Shown: positions 2,907 through 27,080 of the stretch, piece after piece
Numbering within the stretch: the stretch's first letter is position 1
How the letters are laid out: the number at the start of each line of letters is the position of its first letter
IMG/VR virus record: IMGVR_UViG_3300020411_002012
Coordinates: 1 to 27,080 of that record
From: a virus
Length of the DNA stretch: 27,080 nucleotides
Direction: 5' to 3' (one strand)
Program-made: the position numbers and the translations under genes
The notes under the pieces: generated by a model
Seen by the model: only the letters and a program-made list of their open reading frames with translations
Database searches by the model: none
What the model was told of the DNA's origin: nothing

Positions 2907-2922
2907 ATTGTTGAAAACAATT
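2906..2922. repeat. Short inverted repeat
   Basis: AATTGTT (2906-2912) and AACAATT (2916-2922) are exact inverted repeats separated by GAA. No T run follows, so this is not a standard terminator; it could be a small protein-binding site or chance. A weak promoter-like pair (TTGAAA 2911-2916 and TTAAAT 2933-2938, 16-nt spacer) overlaps it. Confidence 0.3.
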
Positions 2923-3071
2923 AAATGGTAAATTAAATCTAGTTGAGTGTTATATAGTGTGGAAAAACCTGTGGATAAAATGTAGTCTTAGCACGTAATC
3001 TATCGACAGTCAATCACATTTAACACACTGAAATTCTCTGAAACAAATGTCAACAATCCAAGAACAATCTC

Positions 3072-3100
3072 TTGACAAACTAACAGAAACTGTGTATAAT
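3072..3100 (+). promoter_or_regulatory. Consensus sigma70-type promoter
   Basis: TTGACA (3072-3077) and TATAAT (3095-3100) both match the consensus exactly and are separated by exactly 17 nt. The expected transcription start is near 3107. This places the promoter inside the longest reading frame of the next gene (3047-3316), which argues for the downstream ATG at 3126. Confidence 0.72.
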
Positions 3101-3125
3101 AAGACTGTTAGTTTGAAAGGCAAAA

Positions 3126-3316
3126 TGCAGTATCTCGTTGAGGATGAAGACGGCAAATTGCATGGCACATTCTATTCAGTAACTGACTTAGAATTGTACA
3201 TGGATGGTGTTAGAAACCGTAGAGGAGATAGGTATAAAGAATTGCCCAGACATTCCTGCTTTGATTATATCAAATCGATTGGTTGGTATCTATCAATTAA
3301 GGACGAGAATAACTAA
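3126..3316 (+). CDS. Small hypothetical protein (63 aa from the preferred start)
   Basis: The frame could begin at ATG 3047 (89 aa), but a perfect consensus promoter lies at 3072-3100, within that extension, and AAAGG precedes ATG 3126 by 4 nt. I therefore prefer 3126. The product begins MQYLVEDEDGKLHGTFYSVT and contains a mixed alpha/beta pattern with a basic middle (DGVRNRRGDRYKELPRH) and a C-terminal IGWYLSIKDENN. If the longer form is made, it would come from readthrough transcription. No family is recognised. Confidence 0.6.
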
Positions 3317-3393
3317 CCAGTTATTAACAACAATCATTGGGAATGTGTTTGCCCTAAAGTTACACAAATTGACCCCTAAATTACATCATTAAA

Positions 3394-3498
3394 ATGTCAC
3401 AAACATTCGCAATCTTTCTTCTAGAAAATGCAAACAATGGCAATGAAATCTTAGCAGTCCTCGATGATATCGTAGAGACAGTAGATACAGTGCTATAA
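3394..3498 (+). CDS. Tiny acidic protein (34 aa)
   Basis: ATG 3394 to TAA 3496-3498. The peptide starts MSQTFAIFLLENANNGNEIL and ends with an acidic amphipathic helix (VLDDIVETVDTVL). No Shine-Dalgarno sequence is visible. The composition is protein-like and I have a vague recollection of similar tiny genes in marine T4-type phages, but this is not strong evidence. Confidence 0.45.
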   Translation: MSQTFAIFLLENANNGNEILAVLDDIVETVDTVL

Positions 3499-3512
3499 GT
3501 AAGAACAATTGC

Positions 3513-3541
3513 TTGACAATTAGCAGTTAATAATGTATACT
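3513..3541 (+). promoter_or_regulatory. Strong sigma70-type promoter ahead of a gene-free region
   Basis: TTGACA (3513-3518) and TATACT (3536-3541) are separated by exactly 17 nt. The expected transcription start is near 3548, within the first hairpin described below. It lies just downstream of the 34-aa gene and about 170 nt before the next confident ATG (3718), so it makes either a long structured leader or a separate small RNA. Confidence 0.7.
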
Positions 3542-3932: not shown

Positions 3933-4100
3933 ATGTCAAAAAGATTCACCCTTCAACTCGAGCTCAACGATTTCGAGGAGTTATCCATACACCTACCCGA
4001 TGAAGTTAGTGAAGACCTTGGATGGTATGAGGGAGATGAATTAGAATTTGAAGTAGACGATGTATCAGGTAGTTTTACTCTGAAGAAAGTTGAAGAATAA
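3933..4100 (+). CDS. AbrB/MazE-like small DNA-binding protein (55 aa)
   Basis: ATG 3933 to TAA 4098-4100. After an N-terminal strand (MSKRFTLQLEL), residues 21-53 follow the SpoVT-AbrB fold pattern: LPDEV, then LGWYEGDELEFEV, then SGSFTLKKVEE, where the LGW.EGDELE segment is the most telling part. Such proteins dimerise into a swapped-hairpin barrel and bind DNA, either as transition-state regulators or as MazE-type antitoxins. No toxin gene is adjacent, so a stand-alone regulator is more likely than an antitoxin. The protein is very acidic for a DNA binder, so its target could be a protein. A late-promoter-like octamer lies just upstream. Confidence 0.68.
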   Translation: MSKRFTLQLELNDFEELSIHLPDEVSEDLGWYEGDELEFEVDDVSGSFTLKKVEE

Positions 4101-4132: not shown

Positions 4133-4426
4133 ATGACTGAACAATTCTCACAAGATGATATGAAAGCCATAGAGGCAAACTTTGAAGCGATTGAAAAGTC
4201 CTTTGGAGACATTAGAGATGGATTTAACACAGTAAATGAGACTATTATCAAGATTAGTTCTAATCAAAAGATTATTGCTGATCGTGTAGAGACTATTGAA
4301 AAGACATTATCTAAGATACCTACACCCGATAAAATCATGTATAAACCAGTGGGTGAAGACGACTACATGAATCTAGGTGATAATTTCGATATGTTATACG
4401 CAAAGATTAAGGAATTACAACAATGA
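4133..4426 (+). CDS. Coiled-coil protein (97 aa)
   Basis: ATG 4133 to TGA 4424-4426. Residues 8-62 show a continuous heptad-like pattern (MKAIEANFEAIEKSFGDIRD, then VNETIIKISSNQKIIADRVE), predicting a long, probably trimeric or dimeric coiled coil. The C-terminal part (residues 68-97) includes YKPVGEDDYMNLGDNFDMLY and a short helix. Its stop overlaps the ATG of the 861-aa virion protein (ATGA, 4423-4426). The coupling suggests the two products act together, perhaps as a tail or baseplate component or assembly partner. AAGGA near its 3' end is the likely ribosome site for the next gene. Confidence 0.75.
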   Translation: MTEQFSQDDMKAIEANFEAIEKSFGDIRDGFNTVNETIIKISSNQKIIADRVETIEKTLSKIPTPDKIMYKPVGEDDYMNLGDNFDMLYAKIKELQQ

Positions 4427-10215: not shown

Positions 10216-10536
10216 ATGACGACCACAAATAAGGTTTCTCAGGTAGTAAGCAAGCAGTTACCGCAGTTTGTTGAAGATAATCACCCTCTTCTTAATAAAT
10301 TACTTGAATATTACTATAAATCCCAAGAAAAAACGGGATATGGTCAGAATATCTTAAATGATTTCTTACAATATCTGAATATTGATAAGTTAAACATTGA
10401 TATTCTTGATGGATCGACAAAACTTGTACAGGATGCTGCAGCAGATGCTACTACAATAACAGTTGAAAACGTAGACTCTTTTCTTGATAAAAACGGTAGT
10501 ATATTAATTAATGATGAGGTAATTTTTTATGAGAAG
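10216..10536 (+). other. Giant protein N-terminal region (residues 1-107)
   Basis: Residues 1-75 are mostly helical and carry QLPQFVEDNHPLLNKLLEYY, a pattern I associate with the N-termini of large tail proteins in marine T4-type phages. Residues 76-107 are a small beta module (TTITVENVDSFLDKNGSILI followed by NDEVIFYEK). A related module recurs near 12660-12810 (NGEIVIANDEIIRYKEK) and a looser version near 21570-21720 (VLRGQSGTTATAH). The N-terminus is the probable attachment point to the baseplate. Confidence 0.5.
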
Positions 10537-13500
10537 GCAGTTCCTTCTCCTAGTGTTGCTTTAAGTCCAGGTATTTCTTATGATCAGGTAAAGATAAAGT
10601 GGATTGGTCTTTCTAATCCTATTAATGATTTTGATGGTGTCAAGAACTCATTCCCATTACTATCACAAAATAGTCCTGTAAGTCCACCATCTCCACAACA
10701 CCTTATTGTTAAACTTTATAACAAGGTTTTAATAGGTGGAGTTGATTATACTATTGATAATAACAATATTAACTTCACTACTCCACCTAGAGCTAAAACA
10801 GTCTCTGATGGATTTGAATCTACAAATATTACATACTTAAAAGGTTTTTCTGAAGACTCTATTTTAGCGTTAGACGATATTTCTAATAATTTTGGTGATA
10901 ATAGGACTAGTTTTGATGTTACTAGAAATAGTATACCTTACAGAGCAGTAGTTGATGAGTATATTATTGCAATTTATGATGGTAATCTATTAACACCAAA
11001 AACGGATTTCACTTTTGATGAAACTACAATTTCATTCAATTTTATACCTTTAGTTGGAAGAAAATTAGCATTATTTTCTATTGAAGCACCAATTCCGTCT
11101 TTTGGATCGGGTGCAGTTGGATTTTCCCGTGTTAATGAAGCAGGTGCGGTAACAGGTATTGAAATTAGTAAAACTGGAAGCGATTATAGATTTGAATATG
11201 CACCTAAAGTTAGTATTAAGTCTAAAGAAGGATCTAATGCTGCAGTTAGGTCATTAATTAACGGTATTAAAAACACACAGTTACTTGGTGGTGGTAAAGG
11301 TTATAGTGAAAGTAACCCACCTACGGTAAATATACAAAGTCCAACAAAAGAAGGTGGCACACCAGCAAAACTTAGTGCTAAAGTAGTAGATGGTGCAGTA
11401 TCTGAAATAGTTGTTGAAGATTCTGGTAGTGGATATACATTTATACCAAGGGTTACCTTTGCACAACCAGGTGGAGCAACATTAGGTAATCCAACTATAG
11501 TTGGAGGATCATTTAGTGGTAGTATTCCTGTTACGAATGGTGGAAGTGGATATACTACTGCTCCTATAGTTTATGTTGATGAACCAACAGGTGAAGACCC
11601 TATTATAGCGACTTTTAAAGCGGTATTAAACGATAGAGGTGAAGTAGAGTCTATTACTACTCTTAACCCTGGTCAGGGGTATACAAGCACTCCTAGAATT
11701 GCAATTGTTGATCCAGTTGGGGCACAAATTTTAGAAACTAAGGTTGACTCAGATGGTAGATTGGTTGATATTGAAATATTGAGTGGTGGAAGTGGTTATG
11801 ACGATGTTCCATCAGTTTATATTGTTGATGATCGACTTAATGATGTTGGTGCTTCTATTGGAGGATCAGGAGCAACTGCTGTTGCTGCAATTTTCAATGG
11901 ACAGATTACAGATATTAATATAACTGAATTTGGTAGTGGATATAGTCAATCTGATCCTCCAAAAATTATAATTCAGTCTCCACCTTCAGCAACTGCTTCA
12001 GTAGAAATAGGAACAGGTGAAGTTACTGGATTTGAAATAATAAATGGTGGATCTGGATATGAGAAGTGTAGATTTGAAGGATGTGCTAGAGCTGCTAGTG
12101 GAATTACTTCATATACCAACAGTGGTGATGTTGTATTCTCTGGTGAGACTGTAGCTGCTTCCCATTCTACAAATGATGCTGTTACTTGTTTAGATGCAGT
12201 ATTTGTTAAGAGATTACTTGACAAATATACAGAACAATACTTACCAGACGTTCCAAAACTAGATTATGCTAGTATTGACGTTAGAAACGCTATTAAGAAC
12301 ATAAAAACCTTCTATTCTACAAAAGGTACTTCTTTTAGTGTTGCATATCTTTTTAAATTGCTTTATGGTGAAGATGTTTCGATTTCTTACCCTAAAGATC
12401 AGATTATTAAACCTTCTAGTGCAACTTGGTCTATTAATACGATTTTAAGGGCAACTTTAGAAAGTGGTGATCCAGTAAACATTAAAGATGCGTTAGTTCA
12501 GCAATTTGAGGATATTGCAGATGAAAATGTTAAGGATGCTAGTGCTCTTGTAGAAAATTACATTGCAATTAAGACTTCAGACCTTGAAATTTACGAATTA
12601 GTCTTATCTGAAGAAACTATTGACGGAACTTTCATTGTTCCTTACAAAACAAAGTTGGGTGAAGGATTGACAGAGACAACTGACGTTATTACTGTTGACT
12701 CTACTATTGGATGGCCAGAAAGAAACGGTGAGATTGTAATTGCTAATGATGAGATAATAAGATATAAAGAAAAGTCTCTAAACCAGTTTATTGAGTGTAC
12801 TAGGGCATCATCTGGCACAATTGCAAAACCTTGGGATGCTGCTTCTGAAGTTAAGTCTAATTTCAAGATTTATCTTAATAAAGATACTCCAGAAGAAGTT
12901 GTAATGAATATTGTTGGTATTGTTGATGCTCAACAAACTACTTTATCAGATACTGGATCATATTACCTTCCTGGAGATAAACTTACTGTTTCTAAACTTG
13001 GTGGTACTACAGAAGCTCCTCAATTAACAGGATGGTTATATAACGTTAAAAAACTAATTGAAGTTACTGGTATAACTTATGGTGGTGTTAATAATCAGTC
13101 TGCAACAGTAACATGTAGTAATGATCATGGTTTATTGGTAGGTGATCAGGTTACTATCTACGGTGCAAACCCAACCATATATAACGGCACATTCCTAGTA
13201 TCTTCAAGGGATTCCGCTAATGTATTCCAATATGTTCTTCCAAATAGTGCAGTTGTAGAACCACAAGGTAATATTTTAATATCAGTTGATTTGAATAAAG
13301 GTAAGTCAACTGATGCTGCTATCGAGAGCATAATCTCACTTTATACTACTAACGTACAAAATACATTCTTTAATAATGAGTATGTGTATGTTGCTTCTAC
13401 TGGTATACCTAACTACAACATTGGTCCTTTTGTTGGATCAGCACTTCTTCCAGGTAACCAGAGAAAACTTAATAGATTCCCTTTAACAACTCAAACTATA

Positions 13501-16500
13501 TCCACAAAGACACTAACAGAAACAGGATCTATTGGTACTTGGATTAATGGTGTTTCTGTATGGTCATATAAATCAACTACTAAGAAGACATTTGGTGCAG
13601 TAACATCTATTGATATTACAGATCCAGGTTCAAATTATGATGCTGAGAGACCTCCTACAATTACTATTGCTGGTGGAGGTGGATCTGATGCATCTGCTGC
13701 AGTTGTAGTTGATGGATCATTAACTGAAATTGAAGTTTTAACTGGTGGATCTGGTTACACTACTTCTCCACTTGTTTCTATTGTTGGTGGAGGTGGATCT
13801 GGTGCTTCTGCTACCGCAATCGTTACTAGAGGATCAGTTTCAAGAATTCTTGTTAATAATGGAGGTACTGGATATACTTCTAAACCATCTATCACTATTG
13901 TTGGTGGTGAAGGTACTGGAGCAACAGGTAATGCATCTGTAAGAGGTCCAGTTAAGAGTATTAATATTACTAATGGTGGAAGTAGTTACACTTCTGCACC
14001 AACAGTTACACTTAGTTCTGGTGAAGGTGCTGTAGCACAACCGATTGTAAGTAATGGTAGAATTATTTCAATTGCTATTATTTCTGGTGGTGTTGGATAT
14101 ACTACTGCTCCAGAAGTTACTATTTTGGGAGATGGATTTGGTGCAGTTGCAAAAGCAACTATTGATTTGGATGGTGAAAACGTTGGTAAAGTAACGAGTA
14201 TTGAAATACTTAATAGAGGTATAGGTTATACACAAGGTTTAACAACTATTGTTCTTGATTCTGTTGGAAGCGGTGGTAAATTCTCACCTAATGTTTTCCA
14301 ATGGGTTTATAACCTTCAAGCAACTACTAATACTGATAGTGCAAAAGGTGCTATTTTTGAGGGTCTTAATACTCAATATGGTGGTGAATATGCACATATT
14401 TCTAATCCACAAAGATTAAGGTATATTCTTGGTGATAACTTAATTAGCAATACTGATGGATCTATTACTGAAAAAGAAAGTCAATTAGAGCATTCTCCTG
14501 TTATTGGTTGGGCATATGATGGTAATCCCATATATGGACCTTATTCATATGAAGATCCTACTGATTTAGGTTCTAATATTGTTAGAATGAGATCTTCTTA
14601 TGCTTTAAAGACTAATTTGGTTTTTGATACTATATCTAATCCAAATCCAGTCAGAATTGATGGTCCTTTACTAACTTCTGAAATTGCAGGTAATTTTGTA
14701 GAAGATTATGAATACAATTTTGGTAGTGGAGATTTAGACCAATATAACGGTAGATTCTGCAAAACTCCAGACTTCCCAGATGGTAGATATTGCTATTTTG
14801 TAACTATTGATGCAACTGCTGCTGGTAATCCAATTTTCCCTTATGTTATTGGTGATAGGTATAATTCTCTTGTAGATGGTTGGAATTTATCTACAGATGC
14901 TATTCAGCAGAATATTCCATCTGGAGTTATTCGTTATAGAGATCCATATGAAAATGTTGATATTGATGTAGAGCGTACACCAAATGAAACTTCTAATGCA
15001 ATAACAACTGAAGATGGTTTTATACTTTTATTTGATCCTGAAGATGAAGATAGAAGTGGTGTTATTGAACAAGCAGAAATAGATGATCCAGAGCAAATGT
15101 ATGAGGAGTCACCTCTACAATTGTATGATTACTTCCCTAAAGTAAGATTTGACTCAAAAGTTGATATTGAAGTTGAAACTATTGAAAAATTTGAAGATGC
15201 ATCTGTTAGTGGATTTATTATTGAAAATCCAGGTAAAAACTATCAGGTTAATGATATTTTAGTATTTGATAATACAGATACTGATGGTAGTGGTATATCT
15301 GCTAGAATTTCTAAAATTACTGGAGAACAAGTACAACAATATACCTTTGAAAGTGTTGAAGGTATAAGTTATGGTATTTTAACTACTACTGTTCCTCATA
15401 ATATTGTTACTGGTGATGAGATTTTTGTTGACTATACTCCTATAATGGATAATACCAACAAAACTTATAAAGCAAGACAATATAAGGGTATAGAAGAGGT
15501 TACAGTTACACAAACAGGTAGTGGTTATAATGTAGACATTCCACCTGAAATTGTTATTGATGGTGATGGAGAAGATGCTGAAATACAAGCAGTTTTAACT
15601 TCTGTTGGTAGTATTGATACATTTAATATTATTAATTCTGGATCTGGTTATGTTAATAATCCTAGAATTATTTCATCACACCCACAGGTCTTCAAAAAAG
15701 CAGATTACTATGCAACATTAATCAGCAATAATGATTATGTTAAAATTAATGATATACATGTTAGTGATAATAAGGAAACTTTCCTTTGTGGATCAACTTT
15801 AGATGCTCAAGGAGATACAGTAGGGTTTATTGCTAAAATATCTGCTTTAGGTGTTAAAGAGTGGGAAAGAACTTTAGAATCTAGTTTACCTGCTGCTGGT
15901 ACTACTAATTTAGAATTTGAAAGACTTCTTGTAGATGGTTTAAATGTTTGGGTAGTTGGTCATAATAGACCAAATGGATCTTTATTAGAGTCTTATAACC
16001 CAGATGTTGTTTTAGTTAAGTATACACAAGCAGAAGATGGTTTAAGTGCTACATTAACTTGGCAAAAGGCATATTCTGGTATTTCTGGGTCTACAAGGGC
16101 TGATCATGTTACTTCTATAGTGAAACTGTCAGATAGTCGTTTTGTTCTTGGTGGTTTTACTAATACTAACTCATCTAATCCATATGATGCTTTTATTGCT
16201 GTAGTTGATACTGCAGGTACGTTTGTTAATAAGAGAAAACTATCATCTGCTGATAAATCTGAAAAGATTATTGATATGATAGTAAATGGAGATAATCTCT
16301 ATTACATAATGGAATTAGCAGATACTGCTGCTGAAAATGATATTACACTTGGTTTAGGTAAAGCAAGTGTATCTACTACATTAATTACTGTTGACTGGGT
16401 TAAAGAGATTGAGCAATCAGTATATTCATTCTTAAATGCAAGTCTTGTAGTTGATGAATATAATGAATTGTATATAACTTCAACTTTAAGATTGAAGAGT

Positions 16501-19500
16501 GATGATATTACTAGAGATAGTTTATGGGTCGGTAAATTTGCTATCGATTCTGATTTAATCTGGAGTTATAGGTATCTTATGCCTTCCAGAGAAGTAAGTG
16601 TAGTTAATAGAAGTGCTATTGATATATTTGGTAATTTAAATATTGCATATACTGAAGAAAACATCACTAGTGGTGAAAATAAGATAGGCACTATAAAAAT
16701 CAATTATAAAGGTGAAATAGTAAATCATACTCAAAATACATTTGATATTACTAATACAACTGATAATAATATTGAAGGTCTTGTTGCTGGTGCTCTTGAG
16801 GTAGATAATTCTGGTGATGTCTATGTATTTGGACAAACTAGGTGGAATAGAAATGAATGTGTATTTGATTTTGCTGCTAGTGAAACTGTAGATCTTTGTG
16901 GTCGTTATACTTTAAATACAGTTGGATTAACTAGTTCTGTAACATATGAAGATAATGTTGCTAAGATATATGGTTACAATCCATCTGGATTAAATTCTTC
17001 ATGGGTCAATTCTGCTATAAGAATTGATGCATCTGATTTGGGAGATGTATTAGCAGATAATTGGACTTTAGATTTCATGATCTATAAGGATGCTACTGCT
17101 TCACAAACATTATCTCAAGCAGATCAAACTATTTGTGGTATTGGTGGAGCAAAAGATGCAACAGGTGGAATGTGGTTGGGATATAATATTGCTAGTGGTG
17201 AATTACAGTTAGTTAGTGCAAATAATGCAACTCAGTTGCAAAATGGTAGTGGAGTATCATCATCTCAGACCAATATGTATGCTGATAACTCTTGGCAGCA
17301 TATAGCAGTTAGTAAAGAAGGTAATTCAGTTAAGGTATATGTTAATACTGTATTGGTTATTAATGCAACTATAACAAATACTGCATGGGGCAATAAGAAT
17401 CTATATTTTGGTAACCAAGAAGGATTTGGTGCAACTGCAACCGATTATAATAGTGCATTCCAAGGACAATTCTTTATTGATAACATTAGAATAAGAAATA
17501 GACCATTAGTTCCTACAGCTCCATCAGATTTTGCAAGTTTACCTCCAGCAACTATACTTGCCTTTGCTCATACTTGGGTAGATACTGCTTGGTTTACTAA
17601 CAATATTACTAAGTATGACTACATTGATTATAAAGGATTTGGTTTAAAAGTAGATAAGAATGCAGATGCTGCAAGACTTGGAGATAAAGGAATACAAACT
17701 AATTCTCAAATTAAGTTTACAAGAACTGCTATTGTTCCTGTTCTTGGCACTACAGCTACTGTAAGTAACATTACATATGCTTTAGGTGATAGTGGACTTC
17801 AGAATTTAGACTATAACGAAGCAGATTCCAATCATACTGATGCACTTGGAACTAATACTTACAGTACTGATGTTTGGTCATCTAGAAATGCTACCATTCC
17901 TGCTCCAGGATCTCAAAAAGTACAAGTTACTGCTGCTGTAAGAAATAGGTATTATTTTAAATCAGTAGAGACAATAAAGATTGACAATATTCAAAAATTG
18001 ACAATCAATCAGGAATTTCAAGTAACTGTTGGTGCTAAGCTTAATTTAAATAATGGTGCATCATTTGTTAATAGTGGTTATATTACTGGTGTTGACAATG
18101 CAAATAAGCACATTTATGTTGCAGTCAATAATAATGATTGGGCTAATGATCTTAATATCGGTGAATTAACTACTACTCGGTTTGATGAGCAAGATACTTA
18201 TGGTGTAATAGGACCAAATGTTGATGATACTAATGAAATTAAGCAATATCAATTCCTTGCTGTTACTGATACTACTCCAGGAACATTTGATATTGATTTA
18301 GCAAATTATAATGCTCCTACTGAGATTGGTGGCACTAATAACTTAGATGAATTCGGTAAATTTAAACCTTGGGGCACTGAAGTTTATAAAGCTAGAATTT
18401 TAGAAACTTCTGGCACTTCTCCATATATTCCTGGATCTGTTATTGAAGTACCATCTAGTAGTCTTAGTTGGAATGCAGCATACTCTACTGTCCAAATAAC
18501 TGGATTGACTGCTGTTGTTAAAATTGATTTAATAACAGATCTTACAAAGATACTTCAAGTAACTGCAGTTTCAAATAGTGATGAAGTTTATGTTATTACA
18601 AATAATTCACATTATTTGAGCAATGGTGATGTCATATATGTTGATGGAAACCCAACTACTCAAGTTGGTCCTACTGTTTATGATGAATATAATGGATCAT
18701 TTACTGTTAATTCAGTAATTGGTATTAAAGAGTTTACTTATAAATTAGGTGCTATAGCAGTAGCTGGTCCTGCTACAATTCCTGGCAATGTTGAAATATT
18801 TGCTAAATCTCCAATATTAAAACAGTATTATGGACATCAATACATCTTTGATGTTAGTCACTCTACTATGTTGGGTGGAAATCTTTCATTCTCTAAGGAT
18901 AGTCTTAACAAACTTGAATACTCTTTCAACTCTATAGAAAGAATTGGTACACCAGGAGTTACTGGTCAAGGATTACCAACACCTTCTGTAAAATTAAAAG
19001 TTGATGAAGGTATTGTTACTAATATTTCTTACTATTTTGATCCATCTAGGACAGGAGATGAATCTCCAGTTGATCCAAATAGTTTCTTAGATATTGTTCC
19101 TTCTCCATATATCGGTACATTTGTATTGACTTCTACATCTGGAGGTACTATTACTACTGGTGATAATACTTGTAGATTTAGGTTAGGTAGTGAGCCAGAA
19201 GGTCCAGCAGAAACTGTTAATACATCATATCAGACAAGTTCTATAAAAGCAGTTGGTAGTATTGGTGATGTTAGAATTGTTAATCCAGGTGGATTCTATA
19301 CAAAACTTCCTGCAGTAACTAGCATTATTTCTAGTAGAAAAATTGAAAGAGTACAAATTAATGAGCCAGGTACTGAATATTCGCCAGGTGAATATCTTTC
19401 AGTTCCTATTGGTGGAGATGGTGAAGGTGGTTATGTATCTATTAAAGTAGAAAATACTACAGATGATGAAGGTGATGTAACTCCAGGTCAAATTGTAGAA

Positions 19501-22500
19501 GTTACAGTTACTTCTCCAGGTAAAGGATACACTACAGCAGAAATAGATATTCAATCCATTCCTGGTATTCTTGGACCTGGATTGAGTGGATCTGGAGCAG
19601 ATTTAGAAGTCGTTATTCCTCCATATGGCACAGGTGCTTCTATCTTTACCAAAGGTACTAATGTTGGTAAGATTAAGAAGTTAAACAATAACAACTTTGG
19701 TTATGATTATACTCATGACTATACACTTAGACCTGAAATTACATTCCCATTGAATGCTCAGTTGATTAATACGAGTATTCTAGAAAGTATTACTATTACT
19801 AACCCAGGATCTGGATATACTCAAGCACCTGTTGTTTCTATCACTGGAGGTGGTGGAAGTGGTGCTATTGCAGAATCTACAGTTAAGAATGGTAGATTAG
19901 ATAGTATTATAGTTAAAGATCCTGGTGCTGGATATTCTACAGAACCTGTAATCAGTCTTAAGTCTTCATTCAATTATGTTGTTAACCTTGACTTAGCATT
20001 ATTACAATTTGCTTATCCACATGGTATTACTAATGGTGCAGAAGTTACTCTTAATGTAATTGATACAGGAGATGGGGCAGATTTCCCAGTTGCTGCTGGT
20101 GCTATTGGTACTTTAAATGGAGCTACAACATATTATGCAATTACAGGAGCAGCAAATTCATTGGATAATGATCAAATGAAACTTGCTCTTACACCAGCTA
20201 ATGCTGAATTGGGTGATGCAATGTCATTCATTAATGCAGGTGTTGGTCGTCAACAAGTGTTAACATCTTCATTTGGTGGTGCTGCTGAAGCAAATGTTAT
20301 TACCTCTACTTTCTTAGAAGGAGAATTACTATATCAAGGTGATACTCTAGAAAATGCAACTGCAACTGGATATGTTTCAACTAATAGTGGTTGGCAGATT
20401 GGATCTAGAATTGTTAAGATTGTTGATTATGATGGTCTCTTTAATACTGGACAGAAAATAACAGGAACAATTTCTAAGTCTTCTGGTGTTATTAGTGATA
20501 TTAAGATTGCTAAAGGTGTCTTAGAAATTGGTCCTATTACTAAAACTACAGGACAATTTGTTGATGATGTTGGTAAACCTTCTGAAATTATTCAAAAGAT
20601 TCAAGATTCCTACTATTATCAAGATTTCTCATATGCAGTTAACTCTTCTGTTTCAATTGAAGAATGGAAGAATACTGTAATTAAGAATGTCCATCCTGCA
20701 TCATTTAAAGTATTTGGACAATTAGAAATTCAGGATAAAGCAGAGATTACTAATAAGGAAACTGATTTTGAATTAACTAAGTCAGTTGAGTTGGCTAGAG
20801 ATGCAGTTGTACCAAATATTCAAAGTTTTGCTCTAGGTGAGCCAATATACCAAGAATTTAACAATACTGAGGTCTTATTCAGACAGAAGAGATTAACTTC
20901 TTCTGAAAATATTTTGACCTCTGTTGTACAAAGAGTTGATAATATATCTGGTTTATTTGATGGTCAAAGAACACAATTCCCACTAACAATTGAAGGTGAG
21001 AATGTAATTGCCAACTCAAACCAGTTGATGATTATTCTTAATGGTGTTGTACAAACTCCTGAAGAATCATTCAGGATCTTAAATGATTCTATTGTATTTA
21101 CTGAGCCACCAAATTCAGTTGCTTCTGTTAAGTATGTTGATGTAACAGTTCAACAAATTCCTACTAAGTTATTTACTGTAACTAATGCATCTGGTATTTT
21201 CCCTAATGTTGGAGATACTCTTAAGGGTGTTATTTCTGGTGCTGAAGCTAAAGCAGTTGGCACTGCAGGTGATACAATTACTATATTTGTAGAGTCTGGA
21301 ACATTCCAACTTAATGAAATAATTGAAGGTAGTGCTACTGGATTTAGTGCATTACTTCTTAATAGTGTTGATGAGGTAAATACTGGATTGTTTAGATTTG
21401 GTGAAAATGTTAGAAATTTTGATGGAGATACTGCAAAAGTTGAAAGAATTAACTTAGCAACTGGTCAAGAAACTCCAATAGCAGATGTTAGATTCTCAAT
21501 TGGAATAAGCACAGTACAATTTGATGTTATTCAAATTAGAACAGATGGTGTTGAAGCAGCTCTTCCTGAAGGTACTTTTGAAGTTGGTAGTCAATATCAG
21601 ATAGCATCTGAAATTATGACAATTCAGAGTGTTACTAATGGAGCACAATCAACTACAATAGAAGTTCTTAGAGGTCAGTCTGGTACTACTGCTACAGCAC
21701 ATTTAGCAGGAACACCAATTTATGGTACTGAAGTAGAAGTTACTAATAGTTTGCTATTAAGTAAAACAGTTGGTACTTATCAGTCAACACCTGGATTATT
21801 TGATATACAATTAAATGATATTGTAATTGCTGCTGGATCAGGAGTTGTTGCAAGAATTACTTCAACAACACCTTACCAAGACCCTGTAACTAATGAGTTT
21901 GTAGATACAGTCACTATTTCTGAAGGATCTACTTTCTTTGGTCTTCTATTCAATAGAATTACTTCTCAGACATATCCTAATGTAATTTTAGATAACTTAT
22001 CTCAATCACAGGTTAATATTGTAGAATATGATAATTTTGAGGCTGCTAATCCATTTAACGATAAATTCCCTGCTAATGAGATTATTAATAATTACATAAT
22101 CAAATATATTAGCCCATCTGGTGCTGCAGGTGCTCATACTTATGTTGGTGGTACATCAACTGCTGCTCTTACCTTTAATGATGATTCTACAAAGAATGTA
22201 ACTGATGCAACATATAATGGCACAACTGGTGAACTTGAATTGACTATTGGAAACCATAGTTACACAACCTCCAATACAGTTAAAATTGGAGAAGGTAAAT
22301 TATCGTTTACTTGTGATTTAGATGGTAATGCTACTACTCATGCATATCCAAGAACAACTGATCCTTGCTATAATACTTTAATTGCAATTGGTTCAGTTAC
22401 AGCAACTACAATTACAGTTAACGTTGGTATTGCTGGTGGATTTAGTGAAGGTGAGACAATAAGAAATTACAAGTTAGATTACTCAAATAATGATGGAGAA

Positions 22501-25500
22501 TTCTTAAACAATGATACTGCATATGTAAGAAAACTATCTCTAAGAAATGAGCAAGGTGATGGATTCTTCTCTAAAGGTCAAATCATTAGATCTGAGAACA
22601 GTAAAGCAGAAGTATTAGGATTTAACCGTGCTAGAAGCACTGTTTACCTTGGTAAGATGGGTAGATCAAAACCATCTGGTGAAGACTTCCATCGTGTTGT
22701 TTTTCATGATGATGCTCAATTAGATACATCTCAGAAGAAGTATGGTGATTCTTCACTATTACTTGGTAAAGCATTTACCACTCATATATTTGTTAGTGGT
22801 GTTACTGATGCTATTACAGCAAATGCTGGTGGTCCATTCACTGCTGCTAGTGGCACTACTTATAATCCTGTAACTGGTGACTTAGTTCTTGAGATTGGCA
22901 CTCATAGTCTTACTACAAGTAACACTATTCAAATTGCTACTGGTGGATTATCATTCACATGTGATGGTGATAATCATACTTCTACAAAGACATATCCTCG
23001 TGCTACTGATCCTGTTGCTGGTCAAACCCTTGCTATCACTGCGGTTTCAGCGACTACAATTACGGTTGATGTAGGTGTTGCATCTACTGATTTGGATTAT
23101 GTAAATATTGATTCTTCTACTGAGTTTGGATTTGGCACAGGTGACTTTACAATTGATGGATGGTTTAGACCTGATAATTTAACTGGTGCAAAAGCTATAA
23201 TTGACTTTAGGACTACTGGTACTGAAATTTCTCCTTACCTATATCTTGATGGTGGTAATGTTAAGTATTTTGTTAATGGATCTGTTGTAATTACAGGAAC
23301 AGCATCTATAGCTTCAGATACTTGGTACCACTTTGCTATATCGAGATCTGGTGGTGTAACTAAGATGTTTATTAATGGATCTCAAGATGGTAGTGATTAT
23401 GCTGATACAAATAATTATGGATCTACAAAACCAATTAGAATAGGTGCTACTATTGTTCCTGGTGATGGATTCATTGGTAGTATTGATGAAGTAAGAATTT
23501 CATCTGTTGCTCGTTATACTACAAACTTTACTGCTCCATTAGGATTCCATCAGGGAGATTTAGATACTAAACTACTTCTTCACTTTGATGGTACTGATGG
23601 TGAGAAGTGGACTGATGATTGGTCTGGTGAGCAAGATTGGACTAATGGACATGATTTCAATAATGATGCTATATTAGCAACTTCTCGTAAGATTTCAGAG
23701 CACATATATGTTGGTGGCACAGCAACTAATGCTGTATTGATCAACCAAGGTAATGTGTTAAAGAATGTAACTGATGCTTGGTATAATTCAAGAACAGGTG
23801 ATTTAGAATTAGAGATTGGATCACATAGTTACACAACTTCTAATACTCTTCAAATTGCTGCTATAAGTCTTACTTTCACTTGTGAGCAAGATGATCATGC
23901 TACAGAGCATTCATATCCTAGACCATCTGATCCTGTCTTCAATAAGAAGATTGCAATTACTTCTGTAACTTCAACAACAGTTACTGTTAATGTTGGTGTT
24001 GCTCTTCCAAAAGGATTTGTTGGTAATACACATCGTTATTTGGATGCTGCTGATTTACTATTAGCTAATAAGGAATTCCTTGCAGAAGAGATTGAAGCAA
24101 TAGTTCAACCAAGTCTTCCAGTATCATTAGATAACTCACAAAATACTTTAATAAATGCTCCTGATTACACTACAAATGATAACTTTAGTTGGGGTATTGG
24201 TGTTGGTAATGGTAAGATTGTAATTGGAAGTAGAGGAGATGATAGTAATACTGCTTTAGATATAGGAGCTATCTATATTCACGATCTAGATGGAAACTTT
24301 GAATCTAAGGTTACTGCTAGTGATGCTCAACAATATGATAAATTTGGTGATAGTGTTGCTGTAGGTAGTAATAAGATTGTAGTTGGTGCTCCACAATCAG
24401 ATCCCAATGGTCTTTCTTCAGGATCTGTTTATGTTTATGATCTTGATGGAACAAATGAAGTTAAGATAACTCCAACTGGAGGTGCTGCAGGTAGACTCTT
24501 TGGTAATGCTATTGCTGTTGGTGATAGTAAGATTATAGTTGGTGCTTATGGAAATGTTACTGGTGACGAAGCTGGTGCAGTATTTGTATATAACCTTGAT
24601 GGCACAGGAGAAGTTAAGATAGAACCAAGTGATGGTGTTGCTAATGATAGATTTGGATGGTCAGTTGCTATTGATACAGTCAATGATAAGATTATAGTTG
24701 GATCTCCAGATTCTGACCCACAAGCTTCTTCATCTGGATCAGTTTACATTTATAATTACGATGGTAGTGGAGAAACTAAGATTACTCCTGGTGACGGGCA
24801 AGAGAATGATTACTTTGGATGGAGTGTTGCAGTTGGTGATAATAACGTAATTTATATTGGTGCTCCTGGTGATGATGATAGAGGTTTCTCTGCTGGTGCA
24901 ATGTATGTTTATACTATTGCTGGTGTAGGAGTATCAAAACTTATTCCTTCTTCAGTTGGTAGTTACGATTATTATGGTTCAAGAGTTGCTGGATATGGAA
25001 CTAAAGTATTTGTTTCTGCATATGGAGCAGATGATAATGCACCTCAAGGTGGTGTAATCTATATGTTTAATCAAGATGCAACTGGTCCTATAGAAAAACT
25101 TTATGATACTACAACTAATACTAATAGTAACTTAGGTAGCACTGCTTTAGTTGCTGCTGAAGGTAGAGTTGTTGCAAGTTCTCGTGATCAAGTTGGTAGT
25201 GCATTGTATGCTGGTAGAGCATACTTATGGTCTTATGCTTCTGTTGCTGGAGATAATGCATATGATACAGAAGTTTCAAATTGTATTGATGCTCTTGTAG
25301 GTGACCTTCGTAATGGTAGTAATAACCATATGTGGGACTTTGCTGCTGCTAATGTTGATAGATCTGGTCCTCCTACTACTCAAGACCCAGTTACAACAAC
25401 AAGATTTACTGGTGAAGAAAGTTATCTATTATCAACTTATGGTCATGTAAGTAGGTTAGCTCAAGAGATTGTTACTAACCGATTAATTCCTGTTACAGGA

Positions 25501-27080
25501 ACACATGGGTTGACTCAAACTACTGATGCATCTCTAACAAATTCATTATCTACAACATTACATACACCAACTGGTGCTGCATATGATCCATCAACAGGTA
25601 TTGTAACTCTTACACTTAATAATCATGGATTTACTGCTGGCACTAAAGTCATGATGCATGATAATGCATTGAAGATGAGTTGTGGATTTAATGGTGCTAC
25701 AGGCCCTGATGCTGAGAAGACATATCCTAGATCAACTGATCCTATTAGTGGTAAGTTTATAGAAATTTCTAATATCCAAACCAATACGTTTGATATTCAA
25801 GTATTAGATACTCTTAATGGTAGCGTTCCTTCAACTAACACTGATGCTCATACATTTGTTTCTTTTGAGCCTCGTGGATTAGAAAGACAATTATCTACAT
25901 ATACCACACTTAGCAAGATTACACCTAAGGCTGCTGCTTATGATGCTACTACTGGTAATTTAATAATCAATATTGGCACTCATACATTAACTACTTCTGA
26001 TACAGTTTCACTTAAAGCAGAATCATTTGTATTCACATGTAATAAGGATGACAATACATTAGAAACTGCTTATCCTCGTGCTACAGATCCTGCAGCAAAT
26101 GCAGTACTTGCTGTTACAGCAGTAGGAACAAAAACAATTACAGTTAATGTTGGACAATCACCTGTTGATGAAAGATATGCACATACGTTTGTATCTGCTG
26201 CTAAGAATGCTGTAACAGTATTAAATTATACTACTGCAGATTGTCTTGATGTTAAATCAACAATTGAAAGTTTAGTATCAATTGCAGAAGACACACTTTC
26301 TGAAGGTATTAGTGCCACACAAATTGCAAATGGAGATTGGTTGGCATATGTTAGTAAGATAACTCCAGCATATGAATATCTTGGTGCTACTGTTGATGCT
26401 TTCATTGAAGTTCCAATAGACCTCTCTTTACATGTTGGAGATACTGACACAATTTACACAAATAGAATTGACCTTAAGACTAAGGATAGATTTAAGGATG
26501 CTGCAAATCTAATTCGTCTTAATAGAGGTGCAATTATTGATAAAGCATCGTTTGATTTGTTAGATCGTTATCCAGATTTGGCAGTCGATATGCCTCGTAA
26601 TGATGGTGGTGCTGGAGAAGGTACCTTAAGATGTAAGACTGATTTGGGTCAAATATTAGATGGAATTGCCGAAGACCTTGAAGATGGTGGAAATAGAAAT
26701 ACCATAAGAGGTGGTAGATTCTATCTTGGTAATAATGATGTATTATTACATATTAGATTGCAAGTATGGCAGTCTGCATATGCTCATGAGCGTTTGGCAT
26801 ATTATACAAAACAAGCAGTTACAGGTGATTTAGACGATACAAATACAGATTCTGTAATTATTAGTGATTGGAATATTACTAATGACACTCCAGGAGCACA
26901 GTTTAGTGTTTCTGCTGCAACTTACGATGTTGCATCTGGTGATTTGACCATGAATATTGGAGCACATCAACTTCCTGCTGGAAGAATGATCCAATTAGCA
27001 ACTAATTCATTATCATTCAGTTGCACATACGGTAGTGGAAATCATACTTATGTTGGTGGAATAGTTAAGTATGCTAATAC
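10216..27080 (+). CDS. Giant modular tail/baseplate protein, 3' truncated (at least 5,621 codons)
   Basis: ATG 10216 lies 7 nt after the gp6 stop, and the frame stays open to the last base, so the product exceeds 5,621 aa (roughly 0.6 MDa). The N-terminus (QLPQFVEDNHPLLNKLLEYY) and the helical KGTSFSVAYLFKLLYGEDVS block near residues 690-720 resemble the start of large tail proteins in marine T4-type phages. Its position matches T4 gene 7 (1,032 aa); cyanophage annotations place a large VrlC-named structural protein near here. In order: GxGY repeats, YHYH-like domain, propeller-like region, LamG, more GxGY repeats, six FTC/YPR modules, an interrupted LamG and an FG-GAP-like propeller. The likely role is a baseplate-anchored host-binding or tail-fibre-like protein. 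Identity as gp7 is inferred from synteny only. Confidence 0.93.
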   Translation, partial: MTTTNKVSQVVSKQLPQFVEDNHPLLNKLLEYYYKSQEKTGYGQNILNDFLQYLNIDKLNIDILDGSTKLVQDAAADATTITVENVDSFLDKNGSILINDEVIFYEKAVPSPSVALSPGISYDQVKIKWIGLSNPINDFDGVKNSFPLLSQNSPVSPPSPQHLIVKLYNKVLIGGVDYTIDNNNINFTTPPRAKTVSDGFESTNITYLKGFSEDSILALDDISNNFGDNRTSFDVTRNSIPYRAVVDEYIIAIYDGNLLTPKTDFTFDETTISFNFIPLVGRKLALFSIEAPIPSFGSGAVGFSRVNEAGAVTGIEISKTGSDYRFEYAPKVSIKSKEGSNAAVRSLINGIKNTQLLGGGKGYSESNPPTVNIQSPTKEGGTPAKLSAKVVDGAVSEIVVEDSGSGYTFIPRVTFAQPGGATLGNPTIVGGSFSGSIPVTNGGSGYTTAPIVYVDEPTGEDPIIATFKAVLNDRGEVESITTLNPGQGYTSTPRIAIVDPVGAQILETKVDSDGRLVDIEILSGGSGYDDVPSVYIVDDRLNDVGASIGGSGATAVAAIFNGQITDINITEFGSGYSQSDPPKIIIQSPPSATASVEIGTGEVTGFEIINGGSGYEKCRFEGCARAASGITSYTNSGDVVFSGETVAASHSTNDAVTCLDAVFVKRLLDKYTEQYLPDVPKLDYASIDVRNAIKNIKTFYSTKGTSFSVAYLFKLLYGEDVSISYPKDQIIKPSSATWSINTILRATLESGDPVNIKDALVQQFEDIADENVKDASALVENYIAIKTSDLEIYELVLSEETIDGTFIVPYKTKLGEGLTETTDVITVDSTIGWPERNGEIVIANDEIIRYKEKSLNQFIECTRASSGTIAKPWDAASEVKSNFKIYLNKDTPEEVVMNIVGIVDAQQTTLSDTGSYYLPGDKLTVSKLGGTTEAPQLTGWLYNVKKLIEVTGITYGGVNNQSATVTCSNDHGLLVGDQVTIYGANPTIYNGTFLVSSRDSANVFQYVLPNSAVVEPQGNILISVDLNKGKSTDAAIESIISLYTTNVQNTFFNNEYVYVASTGIPNYNIGPFVGSALLPGNQRKLNRFPLTTQTISTKTLTETGSIGTWINGVSVWSYKSTTKKTFGAVTSIDITDPGSNYDAERPPTITIAGGGGSDASAAVVVDGSLTEIEVLTGGSGYTTSPLVSIVGGGGSGASATAIVTRGSVSRILVNNGGTGYTSKPSITIVGGEGTGATGNASVRGPVKSINITNGGSSYTSAPTVTLSSGEGAVAQPIVSNGRIISIAIISGGVGYTTAPEVTILGDGFGAVAKATIDLDGENVGKVTSIEILNRGIGYTQGLTTIVLDSVGSGGKFSPNVFQWVYNLQATTNTDSAKGAIFEGLNTQYGGEYAHISNPQRLRYILGDNLISNTDGSITEKESQLEHSPVIGWAYDGNPIYGPYSYEDPTDLGSNIVRMRSSYALKTNLVFDTISNPNPVRIDGPLLTSEIAGNFVEDYEYNFGSGDLDQYNGRFCKTPDFPDGRYCYFVTIDATAAGNPIFPYVIGDRYNSLVDGWNLSTDAIQQNIPSGVIRYRDPYENVDIDVERTPNETSNAITTEDGFILLFDPEDEDRSGVIEQAEIDDPEQMYEESPLQLYDYFPKVRFDSKVDIEVETIEKFEDASVSGFIIENPGKNYQVNDILVFDNTDTDGSGISARISKITGEQVQQYTFESVEGISYGILTTTVPHNIVTGDEIFVDYTPIMDNTNKTYKARQYKGIEEVTVTQTGSGYNVDIPPEIVIDGDGEDAEIQAVLTSVGSIDTFNIINSGSGYVNNPRIISSHPQVFKKADYYATLISNNDYVKINDIHVSDNKETFLCGSTLDAQGDTVGFIAKISALGVKEWERTLESSLPAAGTTNLEFERLLVDGLNVWVVGHNRPNGSLLESYNPDVVLVKYTQAEDGLSATLTWQKAYSGISGSTRADHVTSIVKLSDSRFVLGGFTNTNSSNPYDAFIAVVDTAGTFVNKRKLSSADKSEKIIDMIVNGDNLYYIMELADTAAENDITLGLGKASVSTTLITVDWVKEIEQSVYSFLNASLVVDEYNELYITSTLRLKSDDITRDSLWVGKFAIDSDLIWSYRYLMPSREVSVVNRSAIDIFGNLNIAYTEENITSGENKIGTIKINYKGEIVNHTQNTFDITNTTDNNIEGLVAGALEVDNSGDVYVFGQTRWNRNECVFDFAASETVDLCGRYTLNTVGLTSSVTYEDNVAKIYGYNPSGLNSSWVNSAIRIDASDLGDVLADNWTLDFMIYKDATASQTLSQADQTICGIGGAKDATGGMWLGYNIASGELQLVSANNATQLQNGSGVSSSQTNMYADNSWQHIAVSKEGNSVKVYVNTVLVINATITNTAWGNKNLYFGNQEGFGATATDYNSAFQGQFFIDNIRIRNRPLVPTAPSDFASLPPATILAFAHTWVDTAWFTNNITKYDYIDYKGFGLKVDKNADAARLGDKGIQTNSQIKFTRTAIVPVLGTTATVSNITYALGDSGLQNLDYNEADSNHTDALGTNTYSTDVWSSRNATIPAPGSQKVQVTAAVRNRYYFKSVETIKIDNIQKLTINQEFQVTVGAKLNLNNGASFVNSGYITGVDNANKHIYVAVNNNDWANDLNIGELTTTRFDEQDTYGVIGPNVDDTNEIKQYQFLAVTDTTPGTFDIDLANYNAPTEIGGTNNLDEFGKFKPWGTEVYKARILETSGTSPYIPGSVIEVPSSSLSWNAAYSTVQITGLTAVVKIDLITDLTKILQVTAVSNSDEVYVITNNSHYLSNGDVIYVDGNPTTQVGPTVYDEYNGSFTVNSVIGIKEFTYKLGAIAVAGPATIPGNVEIFAKSPILKQYYGHQYIFDVSHSTMLGGNLSFSKDSLNKLEYSFNSIERIGTPGVTGQGLPTPSVKLKVDEGIVTNISYYFDPSRTGDESPVDPNSFLDIVPSPYIGTFVLTSTSGGTITTGDNTCRFRLGSEPEGPAETVNTSYQTSSIKAVGSIGDVRIVNPGGFYTKLPAVTSIISSRKIERVQINEPGTEYSPGEYLSVPIGGDGEGGYVSIKVENTTDDEGDVTPGQIVEVTVTSPGKGYTTAEIDIQSIPGILGPGLSGSGADLEVVIPPYGTGASIFTKGTNVGKIKKLNNNNFGYDYTHDYTLRPEITFPLNAQLINTSILESITITNPGSGYTQAPVVSITGGGGSGAIAESTVKNGRLDSIIVKDPGAGYSTEPVISLKSSFNYVVNLDLALLQFAYPHGITNGAEVTLNVIDTGDGADFPVAAGAIGTLNGATTYYAITGAANSLDNDQMKLALTPANAELGDAMSFINAGVGRQQVLTSSFGGAAEANVITSTFLEGELLYQGDTLENATATGYVSTNSGWQIGSRIVKIVDYDGLFNTGQKITGTISKSSGVISDIKIAKGVLEIGPITKTTGQFVDDVGKPSEIIQKIQDSYYYQDFSYAVNSSVSIEEWKNTVIKNVHPASFKVFGQLEIQDKAEITNKETDFELTKSVELARDAVVPNIQSFALGEPIYQEFNNTEVLFRQKRLTSSENILTSVVQRVDNISGLFDGQRTQFPLTIEGENVIANSNQLMIILNGVVQTPEESFRILNDSIVFTEPPNSVASVKYVDVTVQQIPTKLFTVTNASGIFPNVGDTLKGVISGAEAKAVGTAGDTITIFVESGTFQLNEIIEGSATGFSALLLNSVDEVNTGLFRFGENVRNFDGDTAKVERINLATGQETPIADVRFSIGISTVQFDVIQIRTDGVEAALPEGTFEVGSQYQIASEIMTIQSVTNGAQSTTIEVLRGQSGTTATAHLAGTPIYGTEVEVTNSLLLSKTVGTYQSTPGLFDIQLNDIVIAAGSGVVARITSTTPYQDPVTNEFVDTVTISEGSTFFGLLFNRITSQTYPNVILDNLSQSQVNIVEYDNFEAANPFNDKFPANEIINNYIIKYISPSGAAGAHTYVGGTSTAALTFNDDSTKNVTDATYNGTTGELELTIGNHSYTTSNTVKIGEGKLSFTCDLDGNATTHAYPRTTDPCYNTLIAIGSVTATTITVNVGIAGGFSEGETIRNYKLDYSNNDGEFLNNDTAYVRKLSLRNEQGDGFFSKGQIIRSENSKAEVLGFNRARSTVYLGKMGRSKPSGEDFHRVVFHDDAQLDTSQKKYGDSSLLLGKAFTTHIFVSGVTDAITANAGGPFTAASGTTYNPVTGDLVLEIGTHSLTTSNTIQIATGGLSFTCDGDNHTSTKTYPRATDPVAGQTLAITAVSATTITVDVGVASTDLDYVNIDSSTEFGFGTGDFTIDGWFRPDNLTGAKAIIDFRTTGTEISPYLYLDGGNVKYFVNGSVVITGTASIASDTWYHFAISRSGGVTKMFINGSQDGSDYADTNNYGSTKPIRIGATIVPGDGFIGSIDEVRISSVARYTTNFTAPLGFHQGDLDTKLLLHFDGTDGEKWTDDWSGEQDWTNGHDFNNDAILATSRKISEHIYVGGTATNAVLINQGNVLKNVTDAWYNSRTGDLELEIGSHSYTTSNTLQIAAISLTFTCEQDDHATEHSYPRPSDPVFNKKIAITSVTSTTVTVNVGVALPKGFVGNTHRYLDAADLLLANKEFLAEEIEAIVQPSLPVSLDNSQNTLINAPDYTTNDNFSWGIGVGNGKIVIGSRGDDSNTALDIGAIYIHDLDGNFESKVTASDAQQYDKFGDSVAVGSNKIVVGAPQSDPNGLSSGSVYVYDLDGTNEVKITPTGGAAGRLFGNAIAVGDSKIIVGAYGNVTGDEAGAVFVYNLDGTGEVKIEPSDGVANDRFGWSVAIDTVNDKIIVGSPDSDPQASSSGSVYIYNYDGSGETKITPGDGQENDYFGWSVAVGDNNVIYIGAPGDDDRGFSAGAMYVYTIAGVGVSKLIPSSVGSYDYYGSRVAGYGTKVFVSAYGADDNAPQGGVIYMFNQDATGPIEKLYDTTTNTNSNLGSTALVAAEGRVVASSRDQVGSALYAGRAYLWSYASVAGDNAYDTEVSNCIDALVGDLRNGSNNHMWDFAAANVDRSGPPTTQDPVTTTRFTGEESYLLSTYGHVSRLAQEIVTNRLIPVTGTHGLTQTTDASLTNSLSTTLHTPTGAAYDPSTGIVTLTLNNHGFTAGTKVMMHDNALKMSCGFNGATGPDAEKTYPRSTDPISGKFIEISNIQTNTFDIQVLDTLNGSVPSTNTDAHTFVSFEPRGLERQLSTYTTLSKITPKAAAYDATTGNLIINIGTHTLTTSDTVSLKAESFVFTCNKDDNTLETAYPRATDPAANAVLAVTAVGTKTITVNVGQSPVDERYAHTFVSAAKNAVTVLNYTTADCLDVKSTIESLVSIAEDTLSEGISATQIANGDWLAYVSKITPAYEYLGATVDAFIEVPIDLSLHVGDTDTIYTNRIDLKTKDRFKDAANLIRLNRGAIIDKASFDLLDRYPDLAVDMPRNDGGAGEGTLRCKTDLGQILDGIAEDLEDGGNRNTIRGGRFYLGNNDVLLHIRLQVWQSAYAHERLAYYTKQAVTGDLDDTNTDSVIISDWNITNDTPGAQFSVSAATYDVASGDLTMNIGAHQLPAGRMIQLATNSLSFSCTYGSGNHTYVGGIVKYAN
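11140..12090 (+). repeat. GxGY beta repeats, group 1 (residues about 309-625)
   Basis: Eight units of roughly 30-45 residues each carry a Gly-x-Gly-Tyr-type turn (GSDY, GKGY, GSGY, GSGY, GQGY, GSGY, GSGY, GSGY) followed by P.v.I-type strands, e.g. IVVEDSGSGYTFIPRVTFA. The pattern suggests an elongated beta-solenoid or a string of small beta hairpins. The repeats are at protein level; the DNA has diverged. Confidence 0.8.
12220..12590 (+). other. Conserved-looking helical domain (residues about 669-792)
   Basis: This block interrupts the beta repeats and reads YLPDVPKLDYASIDVRNAIK, then FYSTKGTSFSVAYLFKLLYG and EDVSISYPKDQI, followed by an acidic helix-rich segment. I recall closely similar FY.SKGTE.S..FLFR.LFGE blocks in giant tail proteins of other marine phages. 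It is probably a core structural element rather than a ligand-binding module. Confidence 0.5.
13580..14280 (+). repeat. GxGY beta repeats, group 2 (residues about 1122-1355)
   Basis: Six regular units of about 34-40 residues follow the pattern hxxIxITxGGSGYTSxP, then VTIxGGGGSGAxAxAxV.xG (GSNY, GSGY, GTGY, GSSY, GVGY, GIGY). This is the most regular repeat array in the window and resembles a beta-helix shaft. Confidence 0.85.
14380..14850 (+). other. YHYH-like domain (residues about 1389-1545)
   Basis: GWAYDGNPIYGP at residues 1431-1442 matches the core of the YHYH domain (G-hydrophobic-A-x-D-G-x-P-I-Y-G-P). It is followed by YSYEDP, an aromatic/acidic stretch (EDYEYNFGSGDLDQYNGRFC) and YCYFVTIDATAAGNPIFPYV. 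YHYH domains occur in many bacterial secreted proteins and in large phage tail proteins; their ligand is not established. The name-giving YHYH string itself is not seen here. Confidence 0.65.
15180..15690 (+). repeat. GxGY beta repeats, short group (residues about 1655-1825)
   Basis: Three units are visible: ENPGKNYQVNDILVFDN, VTVTQTGSGYNVDIPPEIVI and FNIINSGSGYVNNPRIISS. They link the YHYH-like domain to the propeller-like region. Confidence 0.65.
15700..16860 (+). other. Beta-propeller-like region (residues about 1829-2215)
   Basis: About six or seven blade-like repeats follow the logic strand-turn-'GGFT' strand-'FIAVVD..G' strand: e.g. KETFLCGSTLDAQGD with GFIAKISALGVKEWER, SRFVLGGFTNTNSSNPYDAF with IAVVDTAGTFVNKRKL, and GDVYVFGQTRWN. 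The style resembles bacterial propellers with SBBP or delta-60 type repeats. The number of blades is uncertain by eye. Confidence 0.5.
16890..17520 (+). other. LamG / concanavalin-like domain 1 (residues about 2226-2435)
   Basis: The sequence shows the LamG-type jelly-roll pattern: DNWTLDFMIYKDA, then MWLGYNIASGELQLVS, DNSWQHIAVSKEGNSVKVYV, and FFIDNIRIRNRPLVP near the end. The W.H.A..r.g..v.vYvNg block is the strongest part. Such folds usually bind glycans or other surface polymers. Confidence 0.75.
19260..19980 (+). repeat. GxGY beta repeats, group 3 (residues about 3016-3256)
   Basis: Five units occur: GGFYTKLP, GTEYSPGEY, GKGYTTAEIDI, ITITNPGSGYTQAPVVSITG with GGGSGAIAESTV, and DPGAGYSTEPVISL. 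The fourth is nearly the group 2 consensus, so the same repeat type recurs about 5.5 kb downstream. Confidence 0.75.
22702..23640 (+). other. LamG-like domain 2, interrupted by an FTC/YPR module (residues about 4163-4475)
   Basis: The LamG start (FHDDAQLDTSQKKYGDSSLL, ending at KA, 22773) and the LamG body (DLDYVNIDSSTEFGFGTGDF onward from 23089, with DTWYHFAISRSGGVTKMFIN and IDEVRISSVARYTTNFTAP) are separated by 315 nt holding H-I-F-V-S-G and one whole FTC/YPR module. Removing the 315 nt restores a normal LamG order in frame. Confidence 0.65.
24181..25240 (+). other. Seven-repeat FG-GAP-like beta-propeller (residues about 4656-5009)
   Basis: Seven units carry the FG..VAVG..KIVVGAP logic: FSWGIGVGNGKIVIGSRGDD, FGDSVAVGSNKIVVGAPQSD, FGNAIAVGDSKIIVGAYG, FGWSVAIDTVNDKIIVGSP, FGWSVAVGDNNVIYIGAPGD, YGSRVAGYGTKVFVSAYGAD and LGSTALVAAEGRVVASSRDQ. 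Most are followed by (G/S)A/SVYVY(D/N)LDG-like strands. Seven units fit a closed propeller of the integrin-alpha type, and D.N/D-rich turns suggest metal sites. Confidence 0.8.
26430..26820 (+). other. Helical DAANL domain between FTC/YPR modules (residues about 5406-5535)
   Basis: The segment reads FKDAANLIRLNRGAIIDKAS, LLDRYPDLAVDMP, then CKTDLGQILDGIAEDLEDGG with NRNTIRGGRFYLGN. A related start (YLDAADLLLANKEFLAEEIE) is at about 24034-24100 and a related end (NCIDALVGDLRNGSNNHMWD) at about 25279-25338, so two versions of this helical domain may be present, the first interrupted by the FG-GAP region. Confidence 0.45.

Follow-up and report, generated by a model that had tools for sequence, protein, structure and literature searches.

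The giant gene directly downstream of gp6 in this viral DNA very probably encodes the baseplate wedge protein gp7, in a form whose core has been split and whose additional modules are putative adhesive arms. Its gp7 identity is well supported by profile comparisons with known gp7 proteins. The stretch analysed (the window) is a whole virus record of 27,080 bases, and the phage appears to be a cyanophage-like member of the T4 superfamily, its host being read from its relatives. Giant size is already known in the family (syn9, 6,076 aa), and the window's member stands at the long end; the point of interest is its split-core anatomy.

The giant gene and its completeness

The open reading frame runs in frame +1 from an ATG at 10216 to 27078 on the + strand, a total of 5,621 codons without a stop up to the contig end at 27080. 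When the window was shuffled 20 times, no stretch free of stops exceeded 146 codons. As the window is the entire record, the contig end cuts the gene. The gp6 stop is at 10208, leaving 7 bases between the two genes, and the sequence-only reading of one gene of at least 16.9 kb, lying directly after gp6 and open at the window edge, is borne out. The stop codon that it sought beyond the contig is found in another contig (L006/G001), where a complete version of the gene encodes 7,860 aa followed by a stop. Across the 5,621 residues that they share, the window and G001 proteins have 94.4% identity, rising to 98% over aa 628-895. A 408-aa gene lies 3' of the giant-gene stop in G001, and the syn9 gene in that place is annotated as gp10-like. 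The window's own gene would probably be about 7,860 aa at full length, as read from this relative rather than from its own genome.

Nucleotide differences between the window and G001 number 253, 140 and 571 at codon positions 1, 2 and 3, indicating that the giant frame is selected at the protein level over its entire length. Amino-acid change peaks at aa 4501-5000, a section that includes the FG-GAP repeats (76 amino-acid-changing codons). In the window the gene breaks off at residue 5,621; in L007/G002, an independent contig, it does so near residue 5,611. A tandem-repeat array borders both breaks, and so assembly probably halted at the repeats. The giant ORF is real, being neither a chance frame nor an assembly artefact.

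Gene neighbourhood

The wedge cluster of the window has the order gp25-gp6-giant (Table 1), and S-TIM4 has separate genes, named gp9 and gp8, after the giant gene, which leaves gp7 as the wedge gene still missing. PHROG 701, the family to which the giant protein belongs, is categorised as 'head and packaging'; this was set aside, as the neighbours and the core blocks indicate the baseplate. The upstream phrog_719 protein (4423-7008) shares part of the GSGY-repeat region of the giant protein and has a weak PHROG 701 match. Elsewhere in the window are a small, strongly basic protein of 128 aa rich in Lys, Thr and Arg (657-1043) and a 55-aa protein that by eye is AbrB/MazE-type antitoxin-like (3933-4100).

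Table 1. Coordinates of the features described in the window (aa numbers refer to the giant protein)
Feature	Position	Strand	Basis or remark
Baseplate wedge-type protein phrog_719, 861 aa, with GSGY-type repeat	4423..7008	+	PHROG match
PAAR-type protein, 167 aa	7010..7513	+	phrog_281 1.9e-30
gp25 baseplate wedge protein, 139 aa	7741..8160	+	PF04965 2.1e-14
gp6 baseplate wedge protein, 682 aa	8160..10208	+	PF21379 2.1e-17, phrog_219 1e-212
Core block B1, N-terminal helices, aa 3-36	10222..10323	+	short-gp7 HMM aa 3-35, iE 3.6e-7
Insert 1, beta-rich GSGY-repeat module, aa 65-630	10408..12105	+	AlphaFold, motifs
Core block B2 (KGT helix block), FYSTKGT..YLFKLLYGE..ISYP, aa 659-730	12190..12405	+	corresponds to T4 gp7 731-759
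Insert 2, aa 731-3460, at T4 gp7 domain V position	12406..20595	+	colinear in all giants aligned
YHYH domain, aa 1385-1535	14368..14820	+	PF14240 4e-16 and 6.1e-9
LamG-type domain 1, aa 2301-2433	17116..17514	+	PF13385 4.2e-8
Core block B3 (HPA block), YYQDFSYAV..EEWK..V..VHPASFKVFG, aa 3461-3514	20596..20757	+	corresponds to T4 gp7 863-891
Variable modular region, aa 3961-5621	22096..27078	+	homologue colinearity lost from aa ~3960
TCD/YPR repeat 1, aa 3999-4073	22210..22434	+	repeat HMM
TCD/YPR repeat 2, aa 4215-4290	22858..23085	+	repeat HMM
LamG-type domain 2, aa 4294-4433	23095..23514	+	PF13385 1.4e-20
TCD/YPR repeat 3, aa 4523-4596	23782..24003	+	repeat HMM
FG-GAP repeats, aa 4660-5010	24193..25245	+	PF14312 1.7e-61, six stretches; seven counted by eye
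TCD/YPR repeats 4 and 5, aa 5123-5199, 5242-5316	25582..26163	+	repeat HMM
TCD/YPR repeat 6, partial, aa 5569-5612	26920..27051	+	repeat HMM; adjoins contig break

A probable gp7 core, divided into three blocks

A profile HMM trained exclusively on short gp7s of pelagiphage type (the relatives of HTVC008M plus Melnitz-3) matches the window protein at aa 3-35, 665-951 and 3043-3514, with an overall E of 7.5e-52 and an iE of 3.2e-27 for the last of these, the B3 region. All three blocks are matched in 14 of 14 giant proteins, and shuffled and reversed decoys reach E-values of at least 0.14 only. An HMM of T4 gp7 finds B2 in all 14 giants and B3, with weak scores, in 8 of the 14, in the same order. 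The E-values of both HMMs come from a small sequence set, and the decoys bear more weight than the E-values do.

Comparison by hhalign gives 95.5% (E 1.7e-8) for B2 against T4 gp7 and 49.7% (E 1.7e-4) for B3, compared with at most 1.3% for 28 control segments; B3 also aligns with the short gp7s at 2.5e-18. B1 reaches 96% with the short gp7s and 1.4% with T4, which is noise level, although its alignment falls at the expected place (T4 650-679). By order, B1 corresponds to the helical domain of T4 gp7 (643-689, Pfam), and AlphaFold predicts helices at 7-14, 17-22, 24-39 and 42-53 with low confidence. Among family profiles, phrog_964 (T4 gp7) matches B2 at 1.1e-5, phrog_17744 links T4 gp7 to the window by matching T4 646-758 as well as B2 and B3, and PHROG 26741 likewise links T4 gp7 to the window blocks. 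Two pieces of PF23786 (284 positions), both below the curated cut-off, are found about 2,730 residues apart, with profile positions 176-221 at aa 685-730 (E 2.4e-4) and 235-278 at aa 3461-3500 (E 0.0083).

Domain V of T4 gp7 (766-861, 96 aa) sits between the T4 counterparts of B2 and B3. Domains V and VI (Gp7_5th, Gp7_6th) are seen in T4 only and are absent from the Pfam matches of the window, and a counterpart of the first ~640 residues of T4 gp7 was not detected in the giant protein.

Structure searches did not confirm the fold. Foldseek of the model of window residues 1-1150 against the PDB gave no significant match, the top hit being a 1,031-residue chain of 9f4a, an entry holding a gp7 (probability 0.08, TM 0.06). 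The core helices are of low confidence in AlphaFold, the short-form gp7 model has a mean pLDDT of 36 and was left out of the fold search, and gp7 was not among the matches of a profile search of short-form gp7 against the PDB.

The sequence-only reading had raised, as unproven, the idea that the N-terminal part is gp7, with residues 1-800 as the part to compare with T4 gp7. The identity is now supported by three blocks in order; the core, though, is spread over the first 3,514 residues rather than residues 1-800. A separate gp7 gene elsewhere had been named as grounds for refutation; in the whole genomes of three relatives, G011 (174,307 bases), G012 and G018, B2 and B3 occur only in the giant ORF and there is no second gp7. 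S-SZBM1_205 (L104 9260-11107), also named 'baseplate wedge initiator', was considered as a second gp7 and rejected: the repeat parts and a short non-core stretch match, and B2 and B3 are unmatched. Its name was probably carried over from the shared repeats.

Inserts, modules and repeats

Residues 1-3960 are colinear, strongly conserved and of near-constant length in the cyanophage giants aligned in full (P-SSM2 excluded). Insert 1 is modelled by AlphaFold as beta-rich with a pLDDT of ~75-92 over aa 70-620, and carries G.GY motifs at aa 359-611. Insert 2 places ~2,730 residues between B2 and B3, which adjoin in compact gp7-like proteins. The giant frame of one relative (L051 8120-18754; G017, a 154,990-base genome) stops at residue 3,544, just past the gp7 core, where either a deletion or an assembly join leads it into another frame of fibre-like type.

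The variable region contains tandem TCD...YPR..DP repeats of ~75 aa, present in 0 to 23 copies per giant protein. Protein length follows repeat number at ~92 aa per copy (r = 0.97 for 20 relatives, shared ancestry uncorrected). The FG-GAP repeats, which probably form a seven-bladed propeller, are by motif search confined to the window, G001 and G005 (one repeat) when compared with the other full-length relatives that were read. All full-length cyanophage giants read (P-SSM2 excluded) end in a conserved C-terminal stretch of ~650 residues. Structural and adhesion-type modules were expected together in this protein, and the gp7 core is indeed accompanied by LamG, FG-GAP and repeat modules, adhesion being suggested by the module names.

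The giant family and its relatives

All four consecutive quarters of the giant protein match PHROG 701, a profile of 6,136 positions, with up to 2,753 bits. Relatives of the first 1,000 residues are present in 479 phage records, nearly all from Synechococcus or Prochlorococcus phages. Complete relatives range from 5,998 to 8,396 aa, which agrees with the expectation of a protein among the larger ones of phages, the size itself not being new. The homologue of syn9 (ABA47070) has 6,076 aa, S-TIM4 ORF_101 6,603 aa and S-SZBM1_208 6,619 aa; the closest relative of the window differs from these three in being longer (7,860 aa, with a calculated mass of 840 kDa). They are alike in occupying the slot after gp6, in being colinear over aa 1-3960 where fully aligned, and in the conserved C-terminal end of complete relatives. 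The P-SSM2 homologue has 5,195 aa. In OQ319120 (S-BM1; 18492-31676) the giant ORF is unannotated, the record listing mainly antisense ORFs, and the gene extends past the end of the linear record.

The S-SZBM1 homologue, named 'baseplate wedge initiator', is a virion protein and shares 43% identity with the window across 3,887 aligned N-terminal residues. Purified virions of that phage yielded 71 of its peptides (13.5% coverage), with an emPAI of 0.41, compared with 0.23 for gp6 (S-SZBM1_209) (PMC9146016). The virion proteomics proposed as a check have, in effect, been carried out on this homologue.

Remoter relatives, still directly after gp6, are far shorter: 1,016 aa in HTVC008M, 896 aa in Melnitz-3 and 482 aa in ACP17. 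They share the three blocks (B1 and B3 being weak in ACP17) and GSGY-type repeats with the giants. Unlike the giants, they have inserts of ~50-550 aa rather than thousands and do not have the C-terminal adhesin region. T4 gp7 (1,032 aa, about 7 times shorter than the giant) resembles it in gene order after gp6, in having B2 and B3 in the same order, and in carrying an insert, domain V, at the site of Insert 2. It differs in having an N-terminal part of ~640 residues, and domains V and VI, for which no counterpart was detected in the giant. The gp7 orthologue of vibriophage XM1, gp17, has 242 aa, and its unresolved stretches bind the tail spikes (PMC10457771). In the type VI secretion system, (TssF)2-TssG is equivalent to (gp6)2-gp7, and loops of TssG anchor TssK (PMC6300606). 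Compared through these papers alone, XM1 gp17 and TssG hold the same gp7-type wedge position, and by analogy the putative adhesive loops of the giant may lie outside the gp7 core, as the receptor-binding parts do in both.

Alternative readings

The gp7 chain could be cut after translation into a gp7 part (~1-3,540) and an adhesin part, which would be compatible with gp7 identity. Colinearity stops at ~3,960, the core stops at 3,514 and the G017 frame itself stops at 3,544, all of which would suit a cut; however, neither a protease nor a site of cleavage is known in this case, and the C-terminal end conserved in the full-length giants suggests a single functional chain. We consider cleavage improbable.

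It is also quite improbable that the giant is a tail fibre or adhesin beside gp6 and outside the wedge core, with gp7 lost or replaced. The syn9 homologue is annotated 'structural protein, putative fiber', the LamG, FG-GAP and repeat modules would fit a fibre, and long tail fibres are not visible in S-SZBM1 (PMC9146016). A fibre would nevertheless leave it to be explained why the gp7 core blocks occur in order, why aa 1-3960 are strongly conserved and vary so little in length, and why three whole genomes contain no other gp7.

There is a negligible chance that the ORF arose as a chimaera in assembly or conceals stops: the contig does terminate at a repeat array, but an independent contig carries a colinear, 94%-identical complete gene free of the hidden stops once suspected, purifying selection extends over the whole frame and colinear homologues are numerous, which together with the shuffles rule out a chance ORF or an assembly error.

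A proposed model for the giant gp7

For a giant gp7 with a split core, the following arrangement is proposed. A small gp7 core would be retained but divided over residues 3-36, 659-730 and 3461-3514, and these three helical blocks should pack against two gp6 chains, as in (gp6)2-gp7, so that the core and gp6 would together start the wedge, as they do in T4. The two inserts would loop out of the core, and the long C-terminal part would come after it; inserts and C-terminal modules may project as adhesive arms that contact the cyanobacterial surface. If the T4 number of six copies per baseplate applies, six chains of 840 kDa would amount to ~5 MDa.

Among cyanophages, which abound in the ocean, some do not have T4-type long fibres. 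It is possible, although we offer it tentatively, that gp7 itself is now the host-recognition organ, with six single-chain arms of ~0.84 MDa on a split core, tuned by gain and loss of repeats, propeller and LamG domains, replacing separate long tail fibres. Across its relatives, gp7 would extend from compact forms of a few hundred residues up to 8,396, with the core kept and length following repeat number. What has been a 'hypothetical structural protein' becomes a model, open to testing, of the sites at which host-binding parts may be attached and of how they may vary.
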